This document shows positions 1,173 through 49,137 of a stretch of 64,000 bases of DNA, piece by piece. Location of the stretch: assembly GCF_000875775.1 (NCBI RefSeq), contig NZ_CP010868.1, positions 1 through 64,000 on the forward strand, in the 5' to 3' direction. The stretch is from Nitrosopumilus piranensis. GTDB lineage: Archaea > Thermoproteota > Nitrososphaeria > Nitrososphaerales > Nitrosopumilaceae. The stretch's first letter is position 1. Every line of letters starts with the position of its first letter. Position numbers and translations under genes: made by a program. A model generated the notes under the pieces. The model saw only the letters and a program-made list of their open reading frames with translations, had not been told where the DNA came from and did not search any database.

Positions 1173-1183
1173 TTTATGAGCAC

Positions 1184-3619: not shown

Positions 3620-3725
3620 TGCCTAAAATATTCCTGAGGATCCAGTTATTAAACCTCACTCTAAATTCACCTAAAAATATCAAATGTTTTGGGTAAATTT
3701 TCAATCTTGAAGAAAAAACTCGATC

Positions 3726-3735
3726 AATTTAAGTA
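3726..3735 (+). promoter_or_regulatory. TATA-like box for taw1
   Basis: The sequence AATTTAAGTA is centred about 27 bases before the ATG at 3758. That is the spacing expected for an archaeal leaderless transcript. No Shine-Dalgarno sequence is visible before the ATG. Confidence 0.45.
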
Positions 3736-3757
3736 AACCAAAACAAGATTTGGACAT

Positions 3758-4786
3758 ATGAGTTGCTCAGGTGAAATAATTGATGGAGAAGAGCAATTGA
3801 TTCAGATCAGGCCTGCAATATCTGCACAACTAAAAAAAGCAAAGTACGGTGTTTCTGATCACTCAACTGTAGAACTATGTCACTGGACAAAAAAATCATT
3901 CAAACATGAAGGTAATTGCTACAAACACAAGTTTTATGGAATTTCAACTCATAGGTGTATGGAATTTTCCCCAGCAGGAATGCATTGTGAGAATCGTTGT
4001 GTTTATTGTTGGAGACCAATGGAATTTTATGATTCATTAGAAATGAAACCAGAACAAGTTGCAGAACCTAAAGAAATTTTAACTAAACTAATGGCTGAAA
4101 GAAAAAAACTGATCAATGGATATTATGGAGATTCAAGAAATGATAAACAAAGATTAGATGAATCTTTACTTCCTAGCCACTATGCAATTTCACTTTCAGG
4201 AGAGCCTACAATGTATCCTAAATTACCAGAACTAATAAAATATCTAAACTCACTTCAAACAACAAAATCAATTTTTCTTGTTACAAACGGTCAAGAGCCA
4301 GACATGATTCAGAGATTACAAGACGAAGATGCATTACCTACACAATTGTATTTATCAACTAATGCAGCAGACTATAAATCGTTTTTGAAAATTAACAAGC
4401 CAAAATATGATGATTCATGGGAGAGATGGAATAGAACACTTGGTATGCTAAAACACCTAAACACACGAACTGTTCTACGAATTACATTGATCAGAGGATA
4501 TAATGATCAAAAAGACATGATTCCATTATTTGCTAAAATGTTTAGAGAATCAAGTCCTCATTTTATTGAAATAAAATCATACATGCATATTGGGCGTTCT
4601 ACAAACAGGTTAGAACATTCAAACATGTTAGAAATGGAAGAAGTAAAACAATTTAGTGAACAAATTACAAAACAGAGTAAAATATTCTCAGTGATGGATG
4701 AAAGTTTTGTTTCAAGAATTTCAATATTGCAAAATAATGAGAGATTTATCGATCGTTGGATTCCATCTTATGCAAATACCAGTTAG
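3758..4786 (+). CDS. taw1: S-adenosylmethionine-dependent tRNA 4-demethylwyosine synthase
   Basis: This is a radical SAM enzyme of wyosine biosynthesis. It condenses N1-methylguanosine at position 37 of tRNA-Phe with pyruvate to form the tricyclic 4-demethylwyosine. The radical-SAM cluster motif CENRCVYC (Cx3Cx2C) is seen around residues 77-84, followed by the WRPM segment typical of TYW1/Taw1, and SLSGEPTMYPKL near residue 146. At 342 residues it matches the stand-alone archaeal form, without the flavodoxin domain of eukaryotic TYW1. It converges on the downstream NTP pyrophosphatase gene, with about 40 bases of 3' overlap. Confidence 0.93.
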   Translation: MSCSGEIIDGEEQLIQIRPAISAQLKKAKYGVSDHSTVELCHWTKKSFKHEGNCYKHKFYGISTHRCMEFSPAGMHCENRCVYCWRPMEFYDSLEMKPEQVAEPKEILTKLMAERKKLINGYYGDSRNDKQRLDESLLPSHYAISLSGEPTMYPKLPELIKYLNSLQTTKSIFLVTNGQEPDMIQRLQDEDALPTQLYLSTNAADYKSFLKINKPKYDDSWERWNRTLGMLKHLNTRTVLRITLIRGYNDQKDMIPLFAKMFRESSPHFIEIKSYMHIGRSTNRLEHSNMLEMEEVKQFSEQITKQSKIFSVMDESFVSRISILQNNERFIDRWIPSYANTS

Positions 4787-5312
4787 AAAATTTTTTCAAA
4801 GATTTAAACCTATGAGATAAATCATTTTTGTTTTTCATTTCGGCAAATGTTTTTTTATAATTTTTTGGAATAAAAATTGGATCATAACCCCAGCCCATTC
4901 CATTTTGGGATTTTGAAACAGTTCCATCTAATTTTGCGTCAAAAGATTTCAGAATTTTTTTATCACAATAAGTAATGATTGATACAAATTTTGCTTTTCT
5001 TTTTGTTGTGAGAAGGTTTAAAATTCCTTTGTTGCCAATAGTTTTGAATACATATGAAGAATATGGACCTGGAAATCCATTTAAAGAATCAATGAATAAA
5101 CCATCATCTTCTATTATGATTGGTTTTTTGCATTTTGAAAATGCATCATATGCTTTTTTTTCTGCAATTTCTTTTAATGAAGTGGATTGAATTTCATCTA
5201 AACTTAATTTGAAAAAACCTAGTTTTATTCCAAATGAATTGAGAATACTTTTTGCTTCTTTGTATTTGTGGGAGTTTGAAGATACAAAATATAGATCAAA
5301 CGACTTGTGCAT
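4746..5312 (-). CDS. rdgB: XTP/dITP (non-canonical purine NTP) pyrophosphatase, Ham1/RdgB family
   Basis: The enzyme hydrolyses ITP, dITP and XTP to monophosphates, keeping deaminated purines out of DNA and RNA. Family hallmarks are the N-terminal SSNSHKYKEAK substrate-binding motif, IIEDDGLFIDSLNGFPGPYS in the middle, and GWGYDPIF followed by FAEM near the C-terminus. An upstream TTG at 5330 is in frame, but the ATG at 5312 (MHKSFDLYF) places the start at the usual distance from the first motif. It overlaps the end of bud32 by 17 bases, so the two are probably one transcript. Confidence 0.9.
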   Translation of the reverse strand: MHKSFDLYFVSSNSHKYKEAKSILNSFGIKLGFFKLSLDEIQSTSLKEIAEKKAYDAFSKCKKPIIIEDDGLFIDSLNGFPGPYSSYVFKTIGNKGILNLLTTKRKAKFVSIITYCDKKILKSFDAKLDGTVSKSQNGMGWGYDPIFIPKNYKKTFAEMKNKNDLSHRFKSLKKFSNWYLHKMESNDR

Positions 5313-28902: not shown

Positions 28903-30078
28903 TTACTTTTGAAGTTCGTTAAAAAATTCAATGTAAGATTGAACTATATGTTTCCAGTCATAGTTGTTTTTTACATAATCAAAGCCATTTTGCCCCAAAT
29001 TTTGTGATACATTAGGATTGTTGAGAAAGTAATTCAGGCATGCCTCAAATTCTAAATAATTTTCAAAATATAATCCGCCATTGCTTTCTAAACAGAAATG
29101 CTTTGTAACAGAGCATTTACCATTAACTAACACAGGGGTTTTGTTTGTCCAAGATTCCATTATTACTCTTGAAAAACTTTCATTAATAGATGGGAGACAT
29201 AAAAATAATGCTGAAGAATATGCATTGTTTAATTCTTCACGAGTTAAAAACACATCAAGTATATTTTTTGAAAACTGTGATGGAATATCAACAGTCCCTT
29301 TACCAGTTAGAACAAGTTTTAAATCAGAATTATTTTTTTTTAAATATGTACAAAAATAATCAATTAGTAAAGAAGTGTTTTTTTGATTATCTTTTCTTCC
29401 AGCACATAAAATAAATTTATCAAGATTATATTTTTCTTTAAAATTTTGTAACGAAGTTTCTTTCTTAATAAAATCTATTCCCTCTCCAAGTATCTTATTT
29501 TGAGAAATTTTTGTAAGAGATGATGCAAATTGTTTTTCAGGTAAAGAATTAAAAGATATTGCTCTAACTTTGGAAAGCATTTCTTTAACAAGATTCATTT
29601 TTGCATATCCCTCATCATGAATACAAGGAATCAAAACAGAACGGTCAGGGTGAATCTGATAACCAAAAAATGTTGTCCCATACAAATAAGGTATAAAAAT
29701 AAATAGACTAGTAGAATCTTTTTTAATTGCATTTAACAAATCTTTACTGTTAATATTATTTTTAAAAAAATCTTTTTCTTCTTGTATTGAGATCTTTTGT
29801 AAAGAAATTATTTTGTGATTAATAGAATCAAAGAGAGATTTGTTACGTTTGTCTAATCTAAATCTATGAACAGGTATTTTATTTTCTAAATATTTGCCGG
29901 GTTTAAGATCATCTTTCCATTCTCCTTGAAATTGTTTAGAACATGTTGTATAAACTTCGACATCTAATCCAGAGTCACGTAGATGTTCTGCAAGTGTTTT
30001 GCATTGAATTTCTGCCCCACCTGTTGCATCTTTTCCATACCATGGAATAACAAATATAATTTTTTGAGAAAAAGTCAT
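28903..30078 (-). CDS. Family 4-like (GT-B) glycosyltransferase
   Basis: The 391-residue protein has two Rossmann-like halves. The N-terminus VIPWYGKDATGGAEIQ holds the acceptor side, and the C-terminal half has CAGRKDNQKN, VLTGKG and the donor-binding CLPSINESFSRVIMESW motif with the two glutamates of EX7E-type retaining enzymes. It probably transfers a sugar from a nucleotide donor to a lipid-linked glycan. It is in a run of minus-strand genes with the two FkbM methyltransferases. Confidence 0.87.
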   Translation of the reverse strand: MTFSQKIIFVIPWYGKDATGGAEIQCKTLAEHLRDSGLDVEVYTTCSKQFQGEWKDDLKPGKYLENKIPVHRFRLDKRNKSLFDSINHKIISLQKISIQEEKDFFKNNINSKDLLNAIKKDSTSLFIFIPYLYGTTFFGYQIHPDRSVLIPCIHDEGYAKMNLVKEMLSKVRAISFNSLPEKQFASSLTKISQNKILGEGIDFIKKETSLQNFKEKYNLDKFILCAGRKDNQKNTSLLIDYFCTYLKKNNSDLKLVLTGKGTVDIPSQFSKNILDVFLTREELNNAYSSALFLCLPSINESFSRVIMESWTNKTPVLVNGKCSVTKHFCLESNGGLYFENYLEFEACLNYFLNNPNVSQNLGQNGFDYVKNNYDWKHIVQSYIEFFNELQK

Positions 30079-30086
30079 TTTTCAGC

Positions 30087-31034
30087 CTAAATATTGGATT
30101 TTCGGGTTAAGTAGACATTTGCAACTTGTGGAGGAATGATTTGTTTGATCAATTCAGATTTACTTATAGATTTCAAGGAGCTTGTGTTTTCATCAATCAT
30201 GTATAATTGAAATCCCATCTCAGAAAGGGGATCTAAAAGATCATCAGGAGTCGTATCAGAAAAATTTAGTGTGAATGGATTGTATTCAAAGACAATATCA
30301 ATATTTTTATTTTCAAGTGTGTTTTTCATACCTTCAAAGATAAGAGGTTCTTGTCCTTCAGCATCAATAAAAATCAGATCAATGTTTTTTTTCTCATTTT
30401 TTAAAAAATCATCAACGGTAATTGTTGGGACTTTAATTTCGTTTAATTGTGGAAATTTTTTTTTTGAAATAAAGTTGTGTAATGAACTTCCTCCAGTCAA
30501 GAGAGTTGCAAAATCAGTTTTATTTGAAACTGCTTTTGATTCAACTTGAACATTTTGAAATCCATTTGAATCAATATTTTTTTTCAAAAGTTCTACTGTT
30601 TTTGGAAATGGTTCAAATGCAAACACTTTACCTTCAGGACCTATTTGTCTTGCAGCTAAAAGCGTAAAGTAACCAATGTTAGCTCCAATATTGATTACAT
30701 TCATTCCTTTTTTTAGAATTTTCTTTAGAAAATTTGTTGTTCCTGGTTCATATTCTACTACAAGATACGTTTCAATTGCAACTTTATCATTGCAATCGAG
30801 AGATAAAGTATTTTCAGCAAGTGTAATACTAATAGTTTCGGTTTTTGGATCATATGCTTGCTTTTTTAATTCTAAAAGTTCGGCCTCCTTAGAGAATTTA
30901 ATTTTATTAAACAAGCCTTCAAAGTTTAAACCTGAATCAATTTGATTATTCCAGTAATCAATTTCAACTTGATTTGGGGTACGATCTAAAAATAATTCAT
31001 ATAATTTTGTGATTTGTTGAGTCAAGTCACTCAT
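30087..31034 (-). CDS. FkbM-family methyltransferase with N-terminal DUF4214-like segment
   Basis: This S-adenosylmethionine-dependent O-methyltransferase probably methylates a sugar hydroxyl in the glycan. The start ATG at 31034 is chosen over a TTG at 31043. An N-terminal part (ITKLYELFLDRTPNQVEIDYW) looks like DUF4214. The SAM-binding motif NIGANIGYFTLLAA is followed by FEPFP and the family DLIFIDAEGQE. A stretch of 69 residues is identical to the next FkbM protein because the two genes share a 208-base perfect repeat. Confidence 0.87.
   Translation of the reverse strand: MSDLTQQITKLYELFLDRTPNQVEIDYWNNQIDSGLNFEGLFNKIKFSKEAELLELKKQAYDPKTETISITLAENTLSLDCNDKVAIETYLVVEYEPGTTNFLKKILKKGMNVINIGANIGYFTLLAARQIGPEGKVFAFEPFPKTVELLKKNIDSNGFQNVQVESKAVSNKTDFATLLTGGSSLHNFISKKKFPQLNEIKVPTITVDDFLKNEKKNIDLIFIDAEGQEPLIFEGMKNTLENKNIDIVFEYNPFTLNFSDTTPDDLLDPLSEMGFQLYMIDENTSSLKSISKSELIKQIIPPQVANVYLTRKSNI
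30546..30753. repeat. 208-base direct repeat, copy 1
   Basis: This segment is identical, as far as can be read base by base, to 31514-31721. It lies inside the SAM-binding region of the FkbM gene at 30087. Sequence on both sides diverges at once. Confidence 0.93.
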
Positions 31035-31054
31035 AGTCGTCAATATACCATATA

Positions 31055-32515
31055 CTATATAATTTCAGATATGTGTTTTGTTAAAAATAAAGTTGCAGTA
31101 TTAGGAAATTTCATTTTTAATAATTCATTTTTGATATAGGTTTTAGGCATTCCATCTGCATCAATGATTTGTATGTTAAAATCAAGTTTTTCTAGTTTTT
31201 CTAAAAATTCACTCCCGCTAGTACCTGCAATTTTTAGTGTATGTGGGTTATATTCTGTAAGGATTTGTATTGGCGCATTTTTTTCAAGGGATTTTTTCAT
31301 ACCATCAAATATTCTAGACTCATATCCTTCTGCATCCATTATAATAAAATCAATTTGGGCAGATTCATCAAAATAATCATCAATAGTAGTAGTAATAATT
31401 TCTAGATAATCATATTCATTGGGAGGAGCAGGTGTTACAAAATTGTGCCCACTATCAGATTTTAATGCAAGAAAAGAATTTTCTTTTCTATCAGATACTG
31501 CCAAAGTAATAATTTGAACATTTTGAAATCCATTTGAATCAATATTTTTTTTCAAAAGTTCTACTGTTTTTGGAAATGGTTCAAATGCAAACACTTTACC
31601 TTCAGGACCTATTTGTCTTGCAGCTAAAAGCGTAAAGTAACCAATGTTAGCTCCAATATTGATTACATTCATTCCTTTTTTTAGAATTTTCTTTAGAAAA
31701 TTTGTTGTTCCTGGTTCATATAGTTCATTATTTGAAAATGGTTCTAGATAATTTTTGTCATTAAAATTAAAATGAATTATTTGATTATCAATTTTTTTGT
31801 AACAAAATGTATCATCATACATCATAATACCTTTTGTACTAAGTTCATTTTTCAATACTTTTTTTGCCTCATCCGATTTTTTTATTATCATAAGTTGTTT
31901 GTAAACAGGATCATCCATAAAATCATATTCAAATAATTGTTTTAACTCTGAAGAAGTTGGATCTCTTTTTAGATAGTAATGATATGCATTAAAGATAGTT
32001 AAGAGATCAATTCTAACAGAATCACTTTCAAGTTTATCGATTCTTAGTTGATGTTTAAGTTCAATAGAATCTAGAATTTTTTTTAGTCCATTTACTGATC
32101 TCGTTATATTAATATTAAATTTAATTTGTTTGTCCACAATAGGATTTAATGCAAATCGTACTTCATTTTGTATTAAATTTCTAAATTTTAAAACTAATTT
32201 TCTAATGAGTTTTGGTTTGAATGTGTCAATTTTGTTTATTGTTTGAATATCATAAGACAAATTTGCTTGAATAAGATTTTCATCAAAATCATCATTAAAG
32301 ATATTTAAATTATTCTTTTTTTGTTCTTTTGAAACTACAGCATCAAGTTCAGCAACACGCTCTAAATTTTTAGAATCAAGGTGAGATAATTGTTCTTGAT
32401 ATCTTGATGAAGCTAATGAAATAATATTTTCAGAGGTAATTTTTGAAGGTTGTGAGGAATTTTGAATTTGATTTTTTATTTCATCCATAATTTTTTTGAC
32501 TTCATTTTCAATCAT
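31055..32515 (-). CDS. FkbM-family methyltransferase with long helical N-terminus
   Basis: The C-terminal half of this 486-residue protein is an FkbM methyltransferase (NIGANIGYFTLLAA, FEPFP, DFIIMDAEGYES). The first 170 or so residues are charged and helical, probably coiled coil (KKIMDEIKNQIQNS, ELDAVVSKEQKKNN), followed by a DUF4214-like part (IFNAYHYYLKRDPTSSEL). The N-terminal part may hold it to a glycan assembly complex. It starts 11 bases after the upstream glycosyltransferase stop and 20 bases precede the next methyltransferase, so all are likely one transcript. Confidence 0.87.
   Translation of the reverse strand: MIENEVKKIMDEIKNQIQNSSQPSKITSENIISLASSRYQEQLSHLDSKNLERVAELDAVVSKEQKKNNLNIFNDDFDENLIQANLSYDIQTINKIDTFKPKLIRKLVLKFRNLIQNEVRFALNPIVDKQIKFNINITRSVNGLKKILDSIELKHQLRIDKLESDSVRIDLLTIFNAYHYYLKRDPTSSELKQLFEYDFMDDPVYKQLMIIKKSDEAKKVLKNELSTKGIMMYDDTFCYKKIDNQIIHFNFNDKNYLEPFSNNELYEPGTTNFLKKILKKGMNVINIGANIGYFTLLAARQIGPEGKVFAFEPFPKTVELLKKNIDSNGFQNVQIITLAVSDRKENSFLALKSDSGHNFVTPAPPNEYDYLEIITTTIDDYFDESAQIDFIIMDAEGYESRIFDGMKKSLEKNAPIQILTEYNPHTLKIAGTSGSEFLEKLEKLDFNIQIIDADGMPKTYIKNELLKMKFPNTATLFLTKHISEII
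31514..31721. repeat. 208-base direct repeat, copy 2
   Basis: This is the identical partner of 30546-30753, in the same orientation, offset by 968 bases. Recombination between the copies would delete 968 bases and join the front of the longer FkbM gene in frame to the end of the shorter one. Confidence 0.93.
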
Positions 32516-32525
32516 GATTCATTAC

Positions 32526-33602
32526 CTATGAAATTGATTTAAGAACTAATTCAATGTTATTTTTTAATAGAATTGTTGCTTTTTCATTATTAAAATTCAT
32601 CAATCTTTCATTTTGTTGTTTAATGATTTGTTCTTTCAACAAATCATCTGACATTAGAATATCAATAATTTGAGCAATTTCACCAAATTTTTTGTGATTA
32701 ACTAAGATTCCTGAGCCCCCCAGAGTATCGGGAACAGCACCTGCATTAAAAGCAATTATTGGAACATGAAAATGCATAGATTCCACAAGTGGAATACAAA
32801 ATCCCTCATGTTCACTCATACATACAAATACATCAGATATCTCAAAATATGACTTTAATTCTTTATCTGAAAGTGTTTCAATTGAAACAACATCTTCATT
32901 ATTGATTTTTAGTTTTTTCTTTAATTTTTCTAATTTTTTAACATATTTTTCTACAGACCAGCTTCCACCAAGTAAAAATAGTTTTGATTTTGGATTAAAT
33001 ATTTTATAATATGCAAATATTTTCAAAATATCTTCTACTTTTTTATTTGGTGAACGTCTACCTACAAAAATAATGTTAGTAGTATCATTATAAGAATCTA
33101 AAATTTGTTGATCCAAATTTATTTTATTGAATCTTTCCAAGTTTAAGAAATATTGCATATCAAGAATTGTTTTAAATCCATAAGATGTTAATTCATTTTT
33201 GTTATATCCTGATGCAGCCATTGCATATTCAAACGAATTAGATAAGATTTTGAGTTGGTCTCGTCCTTGCTCCAGTTCAGATACAAGTGTTTGATCATAT
33301 TCTACAAAGAATTTTGAAGGAGTTATGTTATGATAAAATAATAATTTTGGTTGATCAATTCTTGATAGAAATTTTGCCAATTCAGAACCAATAGAATGAT
33401 GATAAATTATTAAGTCATTTTTTTGAGGGGTATATTCAGTGAAAGGTTTTGTTATTGATTTGGTAGGATCTATTTGTTTTTCAACAAAGATTTCAGAATT
33501 ATAACCGAAGTTGACAATAGATTTTTGCATTTCAAGCACCGTTTCTCCTATTGCATCGTGTCTTGCCAATACCGGAAGGAATTGATGTATTGTTTGTTTC
33601 AA
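32526..33602 (-). CDS. Family 4 (GT-B) glycosyltransferase
   Basis: The 358-residue protein starts with TTG (MKQTIHQFLPVLARHDAIG). The N-terminal half has the acceptor-side fold with YHHSIGSE; the C-terminal donor half has FVGRRSPNKK, FLLGGSW and the retaining-enzyme motif SEHEGFCIPLVESM (EX7E). It is probably a mannosyl- or related transferase acting on a lipid-linked glycan. It is divergent from the ABC exporter genes across 113 bases. Confidence 0.88.
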   Translation of the reverse strand: MKQTIHQFLPVLARHDAIGETVLEMQKSIVNFGYNSEIFVEKQIDPTKSITKPFTEYTPQKNDLIIYHHSIGSELAKFLSRIDQPKLLFYHNITPSKFFVEYDQTLVSELEQGRDQLKILSNSFEYAMAASGYNKNELTSYGFKTILDMQYFLNLERFNKINLDQQILDSYNDTTNIIFVGRRSPNKKVEDILKIFAYYKIFNPKSKLFLLGGSWSVEKYVKKLEKLKKKLKINNEDVVSIETLSDKELKSYFEISDVFVCMSEHEGFCIPLVESMHFHVPIIAFNAGAVPDTLGGSGILVNHKKFGEIAQIIDILMSDDLLKEQIIKQQNERLMNFNNEKATILLKNNIELVLKSIS

Positions 33603-33715: not shown

Positions 33716-34492
33716 ATGAATGAAGAAATCAAAGAAATTCTTAGTTTCAAATCATTAATCTTTACCTTTGCAGTTATGGATTTAAAGCTCAGGTATAGGA
33801 ATTCAATTTTAGGTATTGCGTGGTCATTTCTCGAACCATTATTCATTTTATCCATACTAAATTTAGTTTTTAGTACAATTCTACTAAACAATATTGAATA
33901 TTTTCCAATTTTTCTAATTCTTAGTCTGGTAATGTACAATATGTTTACTCGAAGTACATCAATGTCTACAGAAAGTATGTTATCAAAAGCTACCATCATA
34001 AAATCAGTTTATCTCAAACGAGAAATTTTTGCAATATCATCTACAATAACTGCATTTTTGATGATGTTGATAGAATTTTCAATTGTAATTGTATTCATAG
34101 GAGTGTTTCAATTTACACCAACAGTTACTAGTTTAGCAATTCCTTTGTTAGTGATTCTACTTTTCGTATTTTCATTAGGTATTTCGCTTCCACTATCTGC
34201 CTTAAATGTAAGATTTAGGGATACCCGAATAATTTGGACAGTATTACTCCAAGCATTGTTTTTCCTTACTCCAATATTTTATGAAATTGATTTTCTTCCA
34301 GAATCAATTGCTCAATTTGTAAAATTAAATCCACTTGCATTAATTATGGAGTTAGGTCATAATGCACTTTTGTATAACACATGGCCAAATATATCAGATT
34401 TAAGCTATATCATAGTGACAAGTTTTGCCTCATTATTTGTAGGATGGACAATATTTAGAAAGATGAACAAAAAGATTGATGAAGTAATATGA
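33716..34492 (+). CDS. ABC-2 type polysaccharide export permease (Wzm/TagG-like)
   Basis: This 258-residue membrane protein has about six helices, the N-terminal LKLRYRNSILGIAWSFLEP motif typical of O-antigen and teichoic acid export permeases, and LNVRFRDTRIIW between helices. It should pair with the ATPase encoded next (start codon overlapping its stop by 4 bases) to move a lipid-linked glycan across the membrane. The pairing and order match bacterial wzm-wzt operons. Confidence 0.92.
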   Translation: MNEEIKEILSFKSLIFTFAVMDLKLRYRNSILGIAWSFLEPLFILSILNLVFSTILLNNIEYFPIFLILSLVMYNMFTRSTSMSTESMLSKATIIKSVYLKREIFAISSTITAFLMMLIEFSIVIVFIGVFQFTPTVTSLAIPLLVILLFVFSLGISLPLSALNVRFRDTRIIWTVLLQALFFLTPIFYEIDFLPESIAQFVKLNPLALIMELGHNALLYNTWPNISDLSYIIVTSFASLFVGWTIFRKMNKKIDEVI

Positions 34493-35850
34493 TTGAAAAC
34501 AAAAATAACATAATTAAATCAAAGGAAAAAATTTTTCAATTTAACTCAAATTTGGATATTAAAGAATTAGATAATTCAAAAGAATTCAATTTTGAAGAAA
34601 ATGAAAAATTCTCCATAAGTTTATGGGTTAAATTTTATGGAAAACAGTATGGTTCAGCTCTATCAAAGATGAATGATGATAAATCTGATATGTTTAAGGG
34701 GTGGGATGTTAGATTTCATGTTGAAAATGAAGAACAAAAGATAATTTTTTACATGAACAATAATTATCCGAGTAATTGTTTAATACATCAAACAGGGCCT
34801 ATTAATGAAATTGGAGATTACAAATGGCATCATTTGGTTTTTGCCTTTAATGGATTAACAGAAGCTGGAAGTTTAGAGATTTTTATTGATGGAGTTAAAA
34901 CAGAAGTATACTGTACAGGAAATTCTTTAAAAGAAAATTTTTCAAATATGCATCCAATTACAATGGGGGGTAGATTCAAAGATAAAAATCATTTTAATGG
35001 AAAAATATGTAAGATTAGAATAATAAAAAATAAGTTAAGCATTGATGAAATTTTAAAAATTTCTAAAGAAGTACCGTTGGAAGAAAATAATAAAAAAATA
35101 GAAATTATTAAAGATGAAATTGTTCTAAAAGCATCTAATATTACAAGAAATTTTAGAATACATCAAGAAAACGATGATGAAGTGTTTAGAAAACTTAGAT
35201 CAATTATAACAAAAAAAACAGGATATAAGGATTTGAATGTTCTTAACGATATTTCTTTTGAATTAAAAAAAGGCGAAGTGTTAGGGATTTTAGGTAGAAA
35301 TGGTTCAGGAAAAAGCACACTTTTAAAAATTTTAGGTAAAATTATGAATCCTACATCAGGAGAAATAGAAGTTCATGGAAGAATCTCATCTTTTATATCA
35401 ATAGGTGCAGGGTTTCATCCCGAGATCTCTGCAGCACAAAACATCGTTTTGTATGGAGTTATTTTAGGATTAAAAAAACATGAAATGGAGCAAAAGATTG
35501 ATGAAGTAATACGATTTGCAGAGTTAGAAGGCTTCGAGAATTCACGAATAAAGGATTTTTCTACAGGAATGCTTATGAGACTAGCATTATCTACTGCACT
35601 ATGTGTGGACCCAGACATTCTTCTAATCGATGAAGTGTTATCTGTTGGAGATTATTCATTTCAGGAAAAAAGTAATAAAGCGTTTCAACTTATAAAGAAA
35701 TCAGGAAAATCAATAATATTTGTTAGTCATAATTTAAGACAATTAGAAGAGTTTTGTGACAGGGTCATTTTGTTGGAAAATGGAAAAATTATTGATTCAG
35801 GTAAACCAGAAAAAGTAATAGAGTCATATGTAAAATTAATGAAAAAATAA
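34489..35850 (+). CDS. LamG-like domain fused to polysaccharide ABC exporter ATPase (Wzt-like)
   Basis: Residues about 30-190 form a LamG/concanavalin-like jelly roll (ISLWVKFYG, KWHHLVFAF, LEIFIDGV, FNGKICKIRI are family signatures). Residues about 211-453 are the exporter ATPase with Walker A GRNGSGKST near 269-277, signature DFSTGMLMRL, Walker B ILLIDEVLSVGD and switch His in FVSHN. Bacterial Wzt proteins carry their glycan-recognition domain at the C-terminus; here that tail is absent and the LamG-like domain is at the front, with no signal peptide, so it is cytoplasmic. It may select the glycan for export. It overlaps the permease gene by 4 bases. Confidence 0.9.
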   Translation: MIENKNNIIKSKEKIFQFNSNLDIKELDNSKEFNFEENEKFSISLWVKFYGKQYGSALSKMNDDKSDMFKGWDVRFHVENEEQKIIFYMNNNYPSNCLIHQTGPINEIGDYKWHHLVFAFNGLTEAGSLEIFIDGVKTEVYCTGNSLKENFSNMHPITMGGRFKDKNHFNGKICKIRIIKNKLSIDEILKISKEVPLEENNKKIEIIKDEIVLKASNITRNFRIHQENDDEVFRKLRSIITKKTGYKDLNVLNDISFELKKGEVLGILGRNGSGKSTLLKILGKIMNPTSGEIEVHGRISSFISIGAGFHPEISAAQNIVLYGVILGLKKHEMEQKIDEVIRFAELEGFENSRIKDFSTGMLMRLALSTALCVDPDILLIDEVLSVGDYSFQEKSNKAFQLIKKSGKSIIFVSHNLRQLEEFCDRVILLENGKIIDSGKPEKVIESYVKLMKK

Positions 35851-36514: not shown

Positions 36515-37873
36515 ATGGATAGTCCCATTCAAATAGAATATAAATTAAGAGACAAAGACACTTTATATTTTCTCCACATACCAAAGACTGCAGGGGGGAC
36601 ATTAATTTCATATCTTGATGAAAATTTTGATCTTGATCAAATATGTCGCAAACATTATTGGAGTGAGTGGTTTGATGATATTCCAAGAGATTTTTCTAGA
36701 TATAGGTTATACAGAGGAGAATTAGGTGTAAGTCTCAACAAATTTCTAAATAAAAAACCAATGTATTTAACAGTATTAAGAGATCCATTAAAACGCACAA
36801 TATCTCATTTTGAAACACTCAGAAGAGTACTAGGTCCTGCAGTTATAGATTTTTTTTCAAAATCAAACGAAATATCAGATTTTATCACAGATCCACATTA
36901 TGGTTTGATGCTAAAAAATGTACAAACACGCTATCTTAGTTTAGAGTTAGATGTTCCAAAAATTTTGGAATCAATAGAATATAGATCAAAAGATTTTTTG
37001 ATAGAATCTATATCAGAATTTTTATCACCAAATTTATCTGATAGTGAATTAATTCAAATTGCGAAAAAAAATCTAGCATCAAGTGCATTTGTAGGAATTG
37101 TTGAAAAATTTGAAGAATCATTATTTTTGTTATATTATACTTTTGGTTGGAAACCAAAAAAGACAAATTTACAAAAAAACAAATCAAATACTCCGATAAA
37201 CCAAAAAGAAATATCAGAAAAAACAATATCAAAAATATTAGATTTTAATAAATTAGATAAGGAATTATATGAGTATGGAAAAAATATTTTTGAAAAACGT
37301 TATTCATTAATGGTAAATACATTAAAAGAAAAATATTATGAATCAAAATTTAACAATATTTCATTTAATGAAATGATGTACGAATTATTAGAGAAAAATT
37401 ACGAAGAAAGGACTTATAGAGATACAAATAATACAAATCAAATAGAACTTTATTTTCATAAAAAACTAGTAGGCACTGGGTGGCATTCTAGGGAAAATCA
37501 CAATGATACTGGAAAAATTTTTAGATGGACAGGACCAGAAAAAATATCTACAATAGATTTACCACTTTCTAGAGAAAATGATTTGATAATTGAATTTCGT
37601 GTTTTAATGTCCATAACTCCAGAAATATTAAAAAATTTGAAAGTCAAAATTAATAATTATGAAATTAATCTTAAGATTTTATTTAATAATCAAGGAATCA
37701 CAACATTTCAAGGAATAATCTCAAAACATATTTTGCAAAATGGAAAAAATTTTTCTGTTTTGTCATTTCATGTTCCAAAAACTCTTAGTCCGCATGACAT
37801 TAACAAAAATTTAGCAGATAAAAGAAAAATTGGGATGGCAATAGATTATATTAAAATTAAATCAATTGTTTAA
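36515..37873 (+). CDS. Sulfotransferase with C-terminal jelly-roll-like domain
   Basis: The N-terminal half (residues about 10-270) is a PAPS-dependent sulfotransferase of the heparan sulfate 2-O type, with FLHIPKTAGGT as the 5'-phosphosulfate loop and VLRDPLKRTISHF as the 3'-phosphate site. The last 130 or so residues are beta-rich and end in FHVPKTLSPHDINKN...KIGMAIDYIKI, a tail pattern found on many glycan-cluster enzymes. It probably sulfates a sugar in the surface glycan. Such acidic substitution would fit a marine cell wall. Confidence 0.85.
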   Translation: MDSPIQIEYKLRDKDTLYFLHIPKTAGGTLISYLDENFDLDQICRKHYWSEWFDDIPRDFSRYRLYRGELGVSLNKFLNKKPMYLTVLRDPLKRTISHFETLRRVLGPAVIDFFSKSNEISDFITDPHYGLMLKNVQTRYLSLELDVPKILESIEYRSKDFLIESISEFLSPNLSDSELIQIAKKNLASSAFVGIVEKFEESLFLLYYTFGWKPKKTNLQKNKSNTPINQKEISEKTISKILDFNKLDKELYEYGKNIFEKRYSLMVNTLKEKYYESKFNNISFNEMMYELLEKNYEERTYRDTNNTNQIELYFHKKLVGTGWHSRENHNDTGKIFRWTGPEKISTIDLPLSRENDLIIEFRVLMSITPEILKNLKVKINNYEINLKILFNNQGITTFQGIISKHILQNGKNFSVLSFHVPKTLSPHDINKNLADKRKIGMAIDYIKIKSIV

Positions 37874-38773: not shown

Positions 38774-39409
38774 ATGAAATTTTCATTAATAAAAACGCTA
38801 TTTCAAAACAGGAAAAAATCATTATTTAGAAATGAAGGGAGTTTTAATTTAATCAAATATTTTGTAAAATTAAAACTAGGAGAAATTTCAGGAGATATAT
38901 ATAAATTTGAAAACAAAGAGAAAATTGATTTTGATGAAAGTTTATGTGAAGCTACAAATCAATGGCTTGATAAATCAATCAAAAATATGTTAATGAAAAT
39001 AAATCTGAATAATACTATTATTTTTGATGAAGAAAAAGGATATGAAAATGTAGGGACTGGTTTTATTTTTGTACCATTTCTATTTAATAAAGTCATAGCA
39101 TTCACTCAAAAAGAAGCATATGTATATTTCAAAATAGATGAAAAAAAATCATATACACTAAAAATTAATTGTATATCTATTCCAAAAACTAAAGTTTGTG
39201 TCAAAATAAACAACATAGTAATTGATGCATTTAACATTAATTCATTATCAGTTTTAGAAAAAAATGTCAAAATTAAATCAGACTTGGTAGAAGATAAAAT
39301 TTTAAAAATTGCCATCATAGTTGAAAAATGTTGGTCTCCAAATTATATTTTTGAAGAAATACCAAATTATCCTTTAGGAATAGGTATTGAAAAAATAGAA
39401 ATTTCATAG
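38774..39409 (+). CDS. Unknown protein with jelly-roll-like tail, 211 aa
   Basis: The first 60 residues are charged and AT-biased with no known motif. The rest is beta-rich and ends WSPNYIFEEIPNYPLGIGIEKIEI, the same kind of tail as the sulfotransferase at 36515. Without a catalytic domain, it may be a stand-alone sugar-binding subunit or a remnant of a larger enzyme. It converges on the next glycosyltransferase with 6 bases of overlap. Confidence 0.6.
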   Translation: MKFSLIKTLFQNRKKSLFRNEGSFNLIKYFVKLKLGEISGDIYKFENKEKIDFDESLCEATNQWLDKSIKNMLMKINLNNTIIFDEEKGYENVGTGFIFVPFLFNKVIAFTQKEAYVYFKIDEKKSYTLKINCISIPKTKVCVKINNIVIDAFNINSLSVLEKNVKIKSDLVEDKILKIAIIVEKCWSPNYIFEEIPNYPLGIGIEKIEIS

Positions 39410-40591
39410 TTTAGAAATTTCAGTACAAATATTTTCAAAAATCTTTACGTTTTTTTCAAGATCATATTTTGATAATAATTTTTTAAAGCCATGTTCACCA
39501 AATTCATCTCTAAGATTTTTATGGAAAAGTTTTTTGAGTGCTTGACTAAGTTTTATTGGTTCATTAAATGGAACCAAAATACCATTTTTTCCATCATCTA
39601 TTACTTCTTTAACTGCATCAATTTCACAACCAATAACGGGTTTATGAAATAACCATGCTTCAAGATAAACGATTCCAAAAGACTCAGATTTTGAAGGCAT
39701 TACAAAAATATCACAAGAATGGAAATAAGACCATTTTTCATTTTCAGAGACTTTATCAATATTAAAAATGTGTTTTTTAACTTTTGAATTCAATTTAGAA
39801 TAATATTGTTCAAATACAGTTGTAGAAGGCCCTACAAATGTGAAATAGATGTTATGATTTTCAGAAATCAAAATTTTTGCAGATTCAATTAGATCAATTA
39901 CGCCTTTTTCTGTAGATTTTCTACCTACAAAAAGAACTAAAATAGAATCGGAGTCCAAGTTTAATTTCTTTCTGACATTAAAAAGATCAGATTTGTTTAT
40001 GGAAGTAATTATCCCAGGTGGATTAACAAATACTTTTTCATCATCAACATATTTTTTTATCATAGATTTTTCTCGTTTAGTATTTACAACAATAGCATCA
40101 GACTGAGATAAAAGAGACAATTTTGTAGCATTAAGATAAAGAAAAGGAAATTGTAGATGAAGATGTGGAATTAATATGAATGGGATATTATTTATTTTAG
40201 AATAAAATACAGATGGGATTAAATGATCATATGGAAAAGAAGTTCCAATAATTAGGTCATATTTTTTTTGTGGGTGATTAAGAAATTTCCAAAGATCTAT
40301 AGAAAATGGCCCAGGTTGAGAAATAGGAAAATGTTGTGAAAAATAATTTTCAGGAATTTTATCAGGAGTTGTAATAGAAAATCTTTGTACAGAATAAGGT
40401 TTTGATGGTAAAGATACATTTTGTTTCTTAGAATCATTCCAAAAGGCATCAAGTTCTATAGCATCAGTTGTTACAACATCAACCTCATGTTTTTGAGATA
40501 AATAATCAACATATTTTTCTGCCAATTGTTCAGAACCACCTAATGCAGGGGAAAATCTTTGAACTAAAAACAAAATTTTTAGATTAGACAT
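39404..40591 (-). CDS. Family 4 (GT-B) glycosyltransferase
   Basis: The N-terminal VQRFSPALGGSEQLAEKY is the classical acceptor-side motif of GT4 enzymes. LFVGRKSTEKG and the retaining-enzyme donor motif PSKSESFGIVYLEAW (EX7E), followed by IGCEIDAVKEVI, define the C-terminal half. The 395 residues are full length. It probably adds a hexose or deoxyhexose in glycan assembly. The TylF-like methyltransferase lies 16 bases upstream in the same direction. Confidence 0.9.
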   Translation of the reverse strand: MSNLKILFLVQRFSPALGGSEQLAEKYVDYLSQKHEVDVVTTDAIELDAFWNDSKKQNVSLPSKPYSVQRFSITTPDKIPENYFSQHFPISQPGPFSIDLWKFLNHPQKKYDLIIGTSFPYDHLIPSVFYSKINNIPFILIPHLHLQFPFLYLNATKLSLLSQSDAIVVNTKREKSMIKKYVDDEKVFVNPPGIITSINKSDLFNVRKKLNLDSDSILVLFVGRKSTEKGVIDLIESAKILISENHNIYFTFVGPSTTVFEQYYSKLNSKVKKHIFNIDKVSENEKWSYFHSCDIFVMPSKSESFGIVYLEAWLFHKPVIGCEIDAVKEVIDDGKNGILVPFNEPIKLSQALKKLFHKNLRDEFGEHGFKKLLSKYDLEKNVKIFENICTEISKL

Positions 40592-41494: not shown

Positions 41495-43234
41495 ATGACA
41501 AAAACCAATATTCTCAATAAAAAAATGTTCATAATTGCAGAGATTGCAAATACACACGAAGGATCTATAAATAAATTACATGAAATAGTGAATAAAGCAA
41601 TCAAAACAAAAACAGATGCAATAAAATTCCAACTTTTTACAGCTAAAGAATTATTAGTAAAAAATCATTCAGAATACGAATCATTTAAAAAATTAGAATT
41701 CTCAAATTCTGAATGGTTAAAAGTTTTCAAAAAAATAAAAAAACATCATGTAAAAATTTGTGCAGATGTGTTTAGTAAAGAAAGAGCTGCATTTGCACAT
41801 AAAGCAGGAATAGATATTTTTAAAATTCATTCTTCAGATATGAATAATTATGAATTAATTGATTATATTGCAAGTACACAAAAACCAATTTTATTATCAT
41901 GTTCAGGATGCAAACTAAATGAGATAGATAACGCAATTAATCGAATTAAAATAAAAGGAAAATCACAAATTATTTTGATGCATGGATTTCAAGCCTTTCC
42001 AACAAAAATTAACAAAATTGAATTAAATAGAATCAAAAATTTCCAAAAAAGATACGATTTGCCAGTAGGATATATGGATCATATTGATGGAGGCTCAAAA
42101 TTAGCAAAAATTATTCCGTTGATTGCTATGGGGACAGGTGCGTTTGTTATTGAGAAACACATCACTAGAAACAGGTCATTAAAAGAAGATGATTATGAAT
42201 CCTCAATCAATCCAGATGAGTTTACTGAAATGGTAAAATTGTTACGTAAAACTGAGAAAATATTAGGAAATGATTCATTTGAACTAAGTCAGGAAGAGCA
42301 AGAATATAGAAAGAAGATGAAAAAGATTCCCGTTGCAAAAAGGACAATCAAAAAAGGACAAAAAATTAAGAAAAGAGACATCAATTTGTTGAGATATGAA
42401 AATTATGTAGAAGAACTAAACGTACTAGATATAATCGATAGTGTTGCAAAAAAAACAATTTTGAAAGATAATCCATTTAACATGAAAAATATAGAAAAAA
42501 AGAATAAAGTTGTAGCTGTACTCGCATGTAGAGTTGAATCAGCACGACTATTTGCAAAACCTATGCAATTTGTAGATAATAGAAGAATTTTAGATTCAAT
42601 GATTTCTCAATTGAAAAAATCAAAATCAATTGCTGAAATTATCTTAGCAATAAGTGAAAATCCAGGTAATGAGGTTTTTATTGATTATGCTAGAAAAAAT
42701 AAGCTCAAATTTGTCATAGGGGATGATACTGATGTTTTACAAAGAATGATAAAAGCAGGTGAGCATACGAATGCAGATATTATTTTTCGAGTAACAACTG
42801 AAGATCCGTTTGTCTATTGGGAAATAATTGATTTAGTAATAAGTGATCATTTAAAGAAAAATGCAGATTTCACATATACTGTAGATTTACCAAATGGAAT
42901 AGGTTTTGAATTAATAAATCTCGAATCTTTGAAATTTTCACATAAAAATGGAAATAAGAGGACCAGGAGTGAATTAGTTACAGAGTATATTTTCCAAAAT
43001 AAATCTCAATTTAAAATTAATAAATATAATGTAAAAAAACAATTAAGAAGACCTGATATTCGACTAACAGTAGATTTTCCTGAAGATTTGATACTAGTTA
43101 GAGAAATTATGTCAAAATTAAAAAATAAAAAAATTCCAAGATTTCAAGAAATTTTAGAGACATTAAATAAAAATCCTGAATTATTAGAGATTAACGATAA
43201 ACATAATGAAGAAGCTTATAGAAATTGGTTGTAA
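41495..43234 (+). CDS. NeuB-type nonulosonate synthase fused to SpsF-like cytidylyltransferase
   Basis: Residues about 8-265 are a NeuB/SpsE-type synthase barrel (IIAEIANTHEGS, IKFQLFTAKELL, MDHIDGG, EKHITRNRS), which joins phosphoenolpyruvate to an amino sugar. Residues about 280-335 look like an SAF (antifreeze-like) domain (VAKRTIKKGQKIKKRDI). Residues about 340-579 are an SpsF/KdsB-like cytidylyltransferase (VAVLACRVESARLFAKPM, RVTTEDPFV). One protein thus could make and activate a sialic-acid-like sugar. The synthase lacks part of the classical arginine and tyrosine set that I can place with confidence, so the exact substrate is open. Confidence 0.87.
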   Translation: MTKTNILNKKMFIIAEIANTHEGSINKLHEIVNKAIKTKTDAIKFQLFTAKELLVKNHSEYESFKKLEFSNSEWLKVFKKIKKHHVKICADVFSKERAAFAHKAGIDIFKIHSSDMNNYELIDYIASTQKPILLSCSGCKLNEIDNAINRIKIKGKSQIILMHGFQAFPTKINKIELNRIKNFQKRYDLPVGYMDHIDGGSKLAKIIPLIAMGTGAFVIEKHITRNRSLKEDDYESSINPDEFTEMVKLLRKTEKILGNDSFELSQEEQEYRKKMKKIPVAKRTIKKGQKIKKRDINLLRYENYVEELNVLDIIDSVAKKTILKDNPFNMKNIEKKNKVVAVLACRVESARLFAKPMQFVDNRRILDSMISQLKKSKSIAEIILAISENPGNEVFIDYARKNKLKFVIGDDTDVLQRMIKAGEHTNADIIFRVTTEDPFVYWEIIDLVISDHLKKNADFTYTVDLPNGIGFELINLESLKFSHKNGNKRTRSELVTEYIFQNKSQFKINKYNVKKQLRRPDIRLTVDFPEDLILVREIMSKLKNKKIPRFQEILETLNKNPELLEINDKHNEEAYRNWL

Positions 43235-46459: not shown

Positions 46460-48076
46460 TTAGATTTTTTGATCATCAAATTTAGTATTGATAATTCTAA
46501 TGATTTCATGAACTCCATTTAATAGATCGTGTTTTTCAAGATTTTTACGTAATTCTAGTCTAAAATCATAATCCATCATTTTGATTATTGCATTTTGAAA
46601 AGATTTCATAGTAAGATTATTTATCGATCCTAAGTGAATTGCACCACCTGAAATTCTTGAAAATTTATGTAATTCTTCTCTTTCATGAACTGAAACTGTG
46701 ATCATAGGCACCTTAAGTGAAGCAATTTCAAAAACAGTTCTGCCATTAGCTGTTATCACAAAATCAGATTCACGAATATATTTTGCCATTATATCAGATT
46801 GTTCAATAATTCTCACATTTTGTGAATTTTGGTTCATTTGGAAAACCAATTTTTTAATTTTATTTTTATGAGCATTTCCCATTCCCAAAATAACAACAAT
46901 TTTTTGTTTAAAATTATTTTTTGATAGTAATTCTAAAACAGGCAAAGTCAAATTTTGAGGATCAGTTCCACCAAAAGTTAATAAAATATTTTTTACTTTT
47001 TTTCTAATTGGTTTACTATGTAAAATTCTAAATTCATCACGAACACAAGCATAATTACTTCCGAAAAATTTACGAGGTTTAGTTTTATTTGTTACATATA
47101 TTGGATTAAAAACTAAATCAGCTAAATCACTTCCAGGACCTAAATCTTCAAAATTAACTATAAATGAATTAGATTTACGCAATTTCTTCATGTACGATGT
47201 TGTAGTATAAAGAATATCATTGAAAATCAGATCGGGTTTAAAGTTTTGTAAAATGCCATTAAATTCTTTGTTATTTGAGTAAAATTTTACTTTATACAAT
47301 TGTTTACGAAGTTTTTGATGTCCAAGATTTTTACTTTTTTCCATAACAATTAGAATTTCATTATTTCGTAAGTAGTTTAGAATAGTAATCATGTTATAGA
47401 CATGACCTAATCCAATTTTATTAGAACCGTTAACACAAACAAGTATTTTTCTCCTGTTGAGGATTTTTTCTATTTGTTCTAAATCATGATAATTTTTAGC
47501 TATAAATCCCTCAGTAGGAGAAAGTTTAATGCCTACATAAGAAGGATTGAATTTTTTATTTTTAAGAAAATATTGAATATCAAAACCAAAAATAGTTCTA
47601 GAGCTAACAATATTTTCTTGCACAGATAATTTACTTAAATTGTGTTTAAGAGAAGATTTTGTAAAAGTATCAGAATTTTCAACATATCCAGTAACGGTAT
47701 GATTTTTTGAGATTTTGGGGAAAAATTTTCGAATAGTATTTTTTTCAATTAATGGCAAATCTGAAAAAATAACTAAACATTTTTTATAATTAAAATTTGA
47801 TTCTTTGAATGCATCTAAAGCATTTTTGATGATTTTTTCAGAATTAGATAAGTTAGTATCTTTTAAAAAAATTACATTAGGGGTATATTGTAAAGAAACT
47901 TCTTGAATTGCTTCAGAATCGGTTACAACAAAAACATCGGCACATTTTGCATCAATACATGTTCTTAAAACATAATACAGTAATGGATTGTTATTTACAA
48001 GACGTAGATTGTGTTGAGAAATATTTTTGTTATTACTAAATGCAGGAATTAAAATAAGATTGGTAGTTTTTTTCAT
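46460..48076 (-). CDS. CMP-nonulosonate synthetase-like domain fused to PseG-like sugar hydrolase/transferase
   Basis: Residues 1-220 resemble a NeuA/PseF cytidylyltransferase (ILIPAFSNNKNISQHNLRLV, VVTDSEAI, FSDLPLI). The usual Arg and Gly of the first loop are changed (PAFSNNK in place of PARxGSK), which may affect activity. Residues about 225-535 are a PseG/MurG-like GT-B domain (GSNKIGLGHVYNM, LLTFGGTDPQN, VITANGRTVFEIASL). In pseudaminate synthesis PseG removes UDP before PseI acts, so the fusion joins an early and a late step. The gene ends 3 bases before the NeuB-type gene starts, in the same direction. Confidence 0.87.
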   Translation of the reverse strand: MKKTTNLILIPAFSNNKNISQHNLRLVNNNPLLYYVLRTCIDAKCADVFVVTDSEAIQEVSLQYTPNVIFLKDTNLSNSEKIIKNALDAFKESNFNYKKCLVIFSDLPLIEKNTIRKFFPKISKNHTVTGYVENSDTFTKSSLKHNLSKLSVQENIVSSRTIFGFDIQYFLKNKKFNPSYVGIKLSPTEGFIAKNYHDLEQIEKILNRRKILVCVNGSNKIGLGHVYNMITILNYLRNNEILIVMEKSKNLGHQKLRKQLYKVKFYSNNKEFNGILQNFKPDLIFNDILYTTTSYMKKLRKSNSFIVNFEDLGPGSDLADLVFNPIYVTNKTKPRKFFGSNYACVRDEFRILHSKPIRKKVKNILLTFGGTDPQNLTLPVLELLSKNNFKQKIVVILGMGNAHKNKIKKLVFQMNQNSQNVRIIEQSDIMAKYIRESDFVITANGRTVFEIASLKVPMITVSVHEREELHKFSRISGGAIHLGSINNLTMKSFQNAIIKMMDYDFRLELRKNLEKHDLLNGVHEIIRIINTKFDDQKI

Positions 48077-48078
48077 AG

Positions 48079-49137
48079 TTATTCAATATCATCCCATTGA
48101 ATTGGGATATCTTCCTCAATATCTTTTTTAGCTGTAGAATTAACGACTTTATCTAAAAATTTAGGATAAATTCCAGTTGCAGGTCTCTTAACGTCCAACA
48201 TATATTTAGAAATTTTAGTACCCTTAGGAATATTTTGGGTAGATACAATACTTCTTCTGGCATATTTTATAGATTCTTTTTCACAATTGAAATCATTTCT
48301 AATATCAGAACCCTTGGAAATTTTTGCAATGTTTAAACCATTAACTAAATCAATAAAATCTGCAGGATCTAGAGACAGCCAATGATCAGGACTACGATCT
48401 AATGTTTTATCAAACGTAAAATGTTTCTCAATAACTTTAGAGCCATAAAAAGTTGAAAATAATGCAGCCAAAATTCCGGGTGTGTGATCAGAGTATCCAA
48501 TTACTAATGAAGGATATTCTTGAGTAAGCTTTTGAATCATATCTAAATTAGCATCTTCAAATTTAGTGGGATATGAAGTCATACAATGCATTAAAACAAT
48601 ATTTTGATTTCCAGAATCTTGAATTGTGTTAATAGCTTCTTTAATTTCTAAATCAGAAGCCATTCCAGTAGATAAAAAAATAGGAAGTTGCTTTGATGCA
48701 ATATGTTTGATTAATGGTATGTGAGTCAAATCGGCTGAAGCAATTTTGAACGCAGGAACATCTAAAGAATATAAAAGATCAACAGATTTTTCATCAAATG
48801 GAGTTGAAAAACAGGTAATTTGTTTTTCATTTGCATATTCAAAAATTTGTTTCCAATCATCATTTGCTAAATTATCAAGTTTGGAAAATACATCAAATTG
48901 AGATTCATGTTTTTTGTTATCATCCCAATATTTTGGAGCAGTTTTTGTAGATAATTTACCAGCTTTATATGTTTGGAATTTTATAGAATGTGCTTTTCCA
49001 TCAACAGCAGCATCAATCAGTTTGAAAGCTTTGTTTAAATTACCGTCATGATTTGCTCCCGCTTCAGCAATAGTATAACAAGGATTATCATCACCAATCT
49101 TTGTTCCATCAATAGTTATTTCGGGCACACCACACAT
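48079..49137 (-). CDS. NeuB-family nonulosonate synthase (PseI/LegI-like)
   Basis: This 352-residue enzyme condenses phosphoenolpyruvate with a hexosamine to a nine-carbon sugar acid. Motifs are CYTIAEAGANHDGN, IKFQTYKAGKLST, VIGYSDHTPGI and VIEKHFTFDKTLDRSPDHWLSLDP. A C-terminal SAF domain (ARRSIVSTQNIPKGTKIS...) completes the usual length. It is far closer to the standard PseI/LegI form than the fused protein at 41495, so it is likely the main synthase. The PseG-containing gene is 3 bases downstream. Confidence 0.93.
   Translation of the reverse strand: MCGVPEITIDGTKIGDDNPCYTIAEAGANHDGNLNKAFKLIDAAVDGKAHSIKFQTYKAGKLSTKTAPKYWDDNKKHESQFDVFSKLDNLANDDWKQIFEYANEKQITCFSTPFDEKSVDLLYSLDVPAFKIASADLTHIPLIKHIASKQLPIFLSTGMASDLEIKEAINTIQDSGNQNIVLMHCMTSYPTKFEDANLDMIQKLTQEYPSLVIGYSDHTPGILAALFSTFYGSKVIEKHFTFDKTLDRSPDHWLSLDPADFIDLVNGLNIAKISKGSDIRNDFNCEKESIKYARRSIVSTQNIPKGTKISKYMLDVKRPATGIYPKFLDKVVNSTAKKDIEEDIPIQWDDIE

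Follow-up and report, generated by a model that had tools for sequence, protein, structure and literature searches.

What does a LamG-like domain do at the front of the ATPase of a glycan exporter? In the first 64 kb of the Nitrosopumilus piranensis genome (GCF_000875775.1, NZ_CP010868.1, positions 1-64,000; hereafter the window), a first-pass annotation had described an open reading frame in which a LamG jelly-roll precedes an ABC ATPase and had read this order of domains as a different solution to chain recognition. The frame lies at 34489-35850 on the forward strand and encodes 453 aa, exactly as annotated, and its parts and the permease gene upstream are as follows.

33716-34492, + strand: Wzm-type permease (ABC2_membrane), upstream of the fused gene and overlapping it by 4 bp
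34489-35850, + strand: fused gene for LamG, linker, and Wzt/TagH-type ABC ATPase, 453 aa, ATG start
34588-35052, + strand: Laminin_G_3 domain, residues 34-188, from Pfam and the structure model
35053-35109, + strand: linker, residues 189-207
35110-35847, + strand: Wzt-type nucleotide-binding domain (NBD), residues 208-453, ending where standalone Wzts end

The ATG of the fused gene lies on the stop codon of the permease gene in a 4-bp ATGA overlap, which is the usual sign of translational coupling.

The ATPase half is matched by Pfam ABC_tran at residues 252-383 (87.7 bits, cut-off 25) and carries motifs that we take to be a Walker A (GRNGSGKST), a signature-like sequence (FSTGM), a Walker B (DILLIDE), and an H-loop (VSHN). 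By sequence and by fold, the nearest solved relatives are the Aquifex WzmWzt and TagH NBDs, with 195.8 bits for Aquifex Wzt in the sequence comparison and 44% identity for 6an5 in the fold search, and the best NCBIfam scores are those of TagH and Wzt/RfbE, every one far under its cut-off. With an NBD this close to Wzt and TagH and an adjacent ABC2 permease in a glycan locus, the fused protein is a Wzt/TagH-type glycan-exporter ATPase, for which export activity is predicted. The C-terminal extension beyond the ATPase is 0 relative to the Wzt profile, and Pfam matches no C-terminal jelly-roll CBD, in agreement with the annotated lack of a C-terminal domain; the defining CBD of CBD-dependent Wzts is absent from the fused protein, which may nonetheless work like one of them. 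In a tree of 29 ATPase cores, from which L095 was left out as a duplicate of L027, the window's row sits in an unresolved fork and has a long end branch (0.89 vs. a median of 0.37).

The N-terminal half matches Laminin_G_3 (PF13385) at residues 34-188 with 52.3 bits against a curated cut-off of 27.6, which bears out the jelly-roll first placed at residues 30-190, and the three LamG signatures named with it (SLWVKF, KWHHLVFAF, and EIFIDGV) are all present; the Pentaxin profile also matches, below its cut-off. Structure prediction, suggested earlier as a check, yielded a confidently folded LamG/concanavalin-like domain for residues 1-205 (pLDDT 81.6, pTM 0.83; model built with 54 diverse viral LamG rows). 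The domain is formed in the full-length model as well (pLDDT 72.7, pTM 0.47). There, the linker, of low confidence from residue 199 on, is uncertain, as are parts of the ATPase, and the model therefore does not fix how the two domains are placed relative to each other. The LamG core residues W46, W113, G160, and G171 are kept despite an identity of 15-24% to 12 aligned LamG relatives.

Structural comparison of the residues 1-205 model with VIA-align placed CBM40 modules first, with those of the NanB sialidase leading and those of R. gnavus, leech, and NanC behind (Z 17-18.4, including 2vw1 with Z 18.4, rmsd 2.9, and 176 aligned residues, and 6er4 with Z 17.7), with scores tied with those of clostridial neurotoxin binding domains and PAPP-A; PAPP-A is also the top Foldseek match. 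Since protein binders such as PAPP-A and neurexin match the model as well as the CBMs do, the LamG fold does not by itself prove sugar binding. No solved Wzt C-terminal CBD was among the best 50 VIA-align matches, which is no argument against a shared jelly-roll ancestry. The CBM40 profile PF02973 gave no match to the N-terminal domain at E-values up to 10, and its search of 299 Bacillota genomes returned weak, partial matches only. According to the parts of the source consulted, CBM40 modules bind sialic acid via Glu126, Arg128, and Arg204 in R. gnavus numbering (PMC5736709). A PDB search with one weak PF02973 match recovered CBM40 C-terminal stretches too short to map ligand residues, and a hand alignment was ambiguous, the R after the GG/GA position being common among the 12 LamG relatives; D73/R75 and R162/K164 may be counterparts of the ligand residues, as a guess by hand.

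The fusion has so far a single example. Among 250 genomes of the family, 27 Wzt-like matches were found in 26 genomes, and LamG stands in front only in the window's. A search of 300 genomes of the order for both domains recovered only the window's own protein, with 22 genomes matching at E-values up to 1e-30 and one match covering residues 1-199. Neither viral contigs nor a genome-contig collection yielded a fused relative, the latter containing one relative with the ATPase only, and none of the 5000 best plasmid records covered 80% of the fused-protein query. Such single-protein scans detect close relatives only, and a bacterial fusion with a very different LamG could escape them. The LamG part alone matched 1 of 95 genomes of the genus (the window's own), 3 of 200 family genomes and 4 of 369 phylum genomes, the window's own included in both, and nothing in phages; the best non-self match by E-value in the family and phylum scans has 27% identity. 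The other matches look secreted by eye, with a signal-like N-terminus in G035 and G229 and a metalloprotease-like sequence in G073, and this genome's two further LamG proteins likewise begin with signal-like sequences. Inspection by eye shows no signal peptide on the fused protein, as had been annotated. Since the remaining LamG proteins inspected, whether from this genome or from relatives, are by eye of a secreted type, the window's LamG looks repurposed, and an extracellular-type domain appears to have moved once onto a cytoplasmic ATPase, as far as these collections show. The literature search found no report pairing Wzt with LamG, or CBM40 and an ABC transporter with Wzt, although a CBM census on ABC transporters may describe variants; within the literature searched, the LamG-fronted Wzt is not a described Wzt variant.

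Extensions of at least 60 aa were measured on 28 archaeal Wzt frames, 27 from the family and one from another family of the order. Seven of these carry an extension, and the remaining 21 have none. In addition to the N-terminal LamG of the window, the modules are an N-terminal TPR (L094), a C-terminal YNCE-like beta-propeller (L093, 6916-8598), a C-terminal Sulfotransfer_3 domain (L095/L027), a C-terminal DUF4214-like tail (L097, 21.3 bits, below the cut-off of 23.2), a similarly long tail with no Pfam match (L096), and, in the other family, a C-terminal methyltransferase-like stretch (L098, a weak match of 19 bits with a cut-off of 27). A recognised Wzt C-terminal domain occurs in none of the seven. 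Modules are mounted in front in two of the seven, the window's and L094's, so that N-terminal modules are rare yet not limited to the window. In a Bacillota control, 53 Wzt matches were found in 45 of 199 genomes; none of the 30 examined has an N-terminal extension of at least 60 aa (the largest is 38, counted stop to stop), and 16 have a C-terminal extension of 156 aa or more. The architecture behind the proposed different solution to chain recognition is as first described, and the role suggested with it, a cytoplasmic reading of the finished glycan, would suit both fold and locus, but LamG is one among several modules added to this ATPase rather than a unique device. The missing C-terminal domain does not by itself call for a substitute, since the absence of any added domain is the norm among the related Wzts (21 of 28).

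Several features were observed beside the extended Wzts. Next to the propeller-bearing Wzt of L093 is a sulfotransferase-like protein with a coiled-coil stretch (both by eye, without a Pfam match). Near the TPR-fronted Wzt, L094 encodes a 1226-aa protein (447-4127) that combines a coiled coil and two GT2 domains with an N-terminus resembling a kinase (by eye), a layout that recalls the Klebsiella O7 terminator as far as the consulted parts of its description go (PMC11231755); a methyltransferase-like gene (4111-5148, by eye) adjoins it. A motif of approximately 40 aa (LY..R.DL...FPEV..G.Y..L..WA) recurs in the glycan-assembly enzymes L093 9553-11130, L094 447-4127, and L094 5367-6431; it has no Pfam match in L093 9553-11130 and is possibly a shared docking module like DUF4214.

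The genes around the fusion belong to a glycan locus and include the following.

28903-30078, - strand: glycosyltransferase (Glycos_transf_1)
30087-31043, - strand: DUF4214 with FkbM methyltransferase
31055-32515, - strand: candidate chain terminator with the N-terminal region shared with syntenic loci, a DUF4214-like stretch (by eye), and an FkbM methyltransferase
32526-33602, - strand: glycosyltransferase (Glycos_transf_1)
36515-37873, + strand: Sulfotransfer_2 family protein with an extra C-terminal region
38774-39409, + strand: 211-aa protein without a Pfam match, conserved near Wzm/Wzt in L096 and L097
39404-40591, - strand: glycosyltransferase conserved in the syntenic loci
41495-43234, + strand: NeuB with cytidylyltransferase, for nonulosonic-acid (sialic-acid-like) precursor synthesis
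46460-48076, - strand: cytidylyltransferase fusion
48079-49137, - strand: second NeuB

The locus also encodes a TylF-like methyltransferase and sugar-nucleotide enzymes (SIS, HAD, GHMP kinase, and RmlD-type), and the DUF4214 match on a window methyltransferase scores 25.4 bits. The adjacent FkbM methyltransferases 30087-31043 and 31055-32515 share 53% identity over 237 aa with a near-identical block of approximately 70 aa inside, which suggests recent duplication or gene conversion. The 211-aa protein 38774-39409, which has homologues in L096 (33%) and L097 (35%), may act as a separate part for sugar binding or capping. The sulfotransferase 36515-37873 continues for approximately 200 residues past its Pfam match, and its closest relative seen is in L119 (39% over 448 aa).

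Two of the related loci, L096 and L097, are syntenic with the window. Both have homologues of 39404-40591, 38774-39409, and the N-terminal region of 31055-32515, and L096 additionally has homologues of 32526-33602 and 28903-30078. The N-terminal region of 31055-32515 resembles coiled-coil proteins of L096 and L097 (41% over 73 aa and 32% over 146 aa), and in both of these it leads into obvious heptad repeats. In L096, a run of N follows, and beyond it lie further repeats, a stretch that by eye resembles DUF4214, and a methyltransferase; in L097, the contig ends within the protein. Chain terminators of capped ABC-export systems are laid out in this way, according to the consulted parts of PMC11231755. 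The crude heptad score flagged no long coil in the window's candidate. The Wzts of L096 and L097 end in DUF4214-like tails, whereas the window's Wzt starts with LamG. A rule linking added modules to coiled-coil terminators was considered and is not supported, as a coiled-coil protein occurs in 15 of 27 loci (17 proteins), namely in 4 of the 6 loci whose Wzt has a module and in 11 of the 21 whose Wzt has none; this score is a crude heptad count with no shuffled control, and misses are undercounted where loci are cut by contig ends. With most relatives lacking a module and 11 of 21 of these having coiled-coil neighbours in the sequence covered, a fused reader is not obligatory.

Starting from what is directly observed, namely the gene, its fusion, the class of its fold, its locus, and the differing modules that related Wzts carry, we infer a putative function in which LamG takes over the task of the Wzt C-terminal domain by binding, in the cytoplasm, either the glycan or its cap; this is the most likely of the readings considered, and we hold the case for it to be evenly balanced. 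The fused protein would be the ATPase that drives a Wzm/Wzt-type exporter, and the substrate would be a lipid-linked surface glycan that is assembled, and then modified at its end, in the cytoplasm. The N-terminal LamG/CBM-fold domain, having no signal sequence and being joined to the NBD, would remain cytoplasmic and bind the glycan, most likely at the modified non-reducing end. Binding would bring the completed chain to the transporter and couple cap recognition to ATP hydrolysis, and the chain would be threaded into Wzm as the ATPases close. In the consulted parts of PMC9445017, the Wzt CBD is essential for capped export and still works in trans, so a reader could serve equally well from the N-terminal side. 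The cluster also contains NeuB genes, which makes an acidic nonulosonic sugar an attractive candidate for the ligand. Against a reader role stands the fact that no relative shares the fusion in the collections searched, which thus give no sign of conservation across species.

A different and, in our view, unlikely function for the LamG domain is that of a docking module for a glycan-assembly partner, such as the terminator methyltransferase, which would cluster synthesis with export without any reading of sugar. Other modules on the related Wzts are protein-binding (TPR) or enzymes (Sulfotransfer_3), DUF4214 occurs on a window methyltransferase and weakly, below its cut-off, on the L097 Wzt, suggesting shared assembly modules, and LamG folds bind proteins too, as the PAPP-A and neurexin matches indicate. 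However, for a beta-sandwich of this class that is attached to a glycan exporter, sugar binding is the simplest role, the top structural rows in VIA-align are CBM40, and the analysis turned up no partner protein for the LamG domain.

The glycan-reading function could also be one instance of a wider pattern, although we find this extension quite unlikely as a whole. In these archaea, the ABC exporter of capped glycans would have no fixed recognition domain, and lineages would add LamG, TPR, propeller, sulfotransferase, methyltransferase, or DUF4214 modules at either end, each matched to its own terminator; in the window, LamG would recognise a nonulosonic (sialic-acid-like) chain end produced by the NeuB/cytidylyltransferase genes 6-14 kb away.

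It is distinctly improbable that the fusion is recent, neutral, or transitional, an extracellular-type LamG having been joined in frame to Wzt with no essential role. The fusion is a singleton among the 27 family Wzts, its N-terminal domain has no close relative (27% identity at best), its ATPase lies on a long end branch, and the GC content of the LamG part (0.247) is below that of the ATPase part (0.293). Other genes of the locus, however, span much of the same GC range (sulfotransferase, 0.254; glycosyltransferase, 0.275), the coupling to wzm is exact at 4 bp, and neutral drift would destroy a fold core that is instead conserved at such low identity to its relatives.

That the fusion is a start-site or assembly artefact, with a standalone ATPase as the real gene and the LamG part belonging to something else, is hardly credible. 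Most relatives are standalone, and a TTG (codon 197) or a GTG (codon 232) could in principle start the ATPase; no other alternative start codon lies shortly ahead of the ATPase core or where it begins. Against an artefact, one unbroken open frame crosses both parts with no in-frame ATG between codons 159 and 286 (codons 160-285), the start codon of the fused gene overlaps the stop of wzm, and the genome, 99.86% complete, is assembled as one contig of 1.71 Mb. The first-pass annotation had itself raised an error not shared by relatives as an objection; no relative does share the fusion, but the frame, the overlap, and the fold argue for it, and we take it as real.

How a finished chain is sensed is understood, in the literature consulted, from bacterial Wzts that carry a C-terminal domain. 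With a lectin-fold domain at the opposite end, and in a group in which the modules on Wzt vary, the window's protein offers a direct test of whether the position and fold of the reader matter or merely the delivery of the chain end to the ATPase, and the LamG-Wzt would provide a handle on surface-glycan export in ammonia-oxidising archaea. The closest known system is the Wzt of Aquifex aeolicus and E. coli O9a, which, in the consulted parts of PMC9445017, shares the ABC2-type Wzm/Wzt exporter and a cytoplasmic beta-sandwich joined to the ATPase, with the NBD closest; there, the CBD is C-terminal and couples recognition to ATP hydrolysis, as proposed for LamG here, whereas the window's protein has an N-terminal LamG/CBM40-like domain and no C-terminal domain. 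TagH/TarH and short Wzts resemble the NBD in length and sequence, but the window's protein has an extra N-terminal part of 207 residues. The six other extended archaeal Wzts (L094, L093, L095/L027, L096, L097, and L098) have the same ATPase group and one added module each, but the modules differ and are C-terminal in five of the six. The CBM40 modules of sialidases are the best-ranked fold match, tied with the neurotoxin binding domains and PAPP-A, but they sit on secreted enzymes, according to the consulted parts of PMC5736709, whereas the window's domain has no PF02973 match and is probably held in the cytoplasm on its ATPase.
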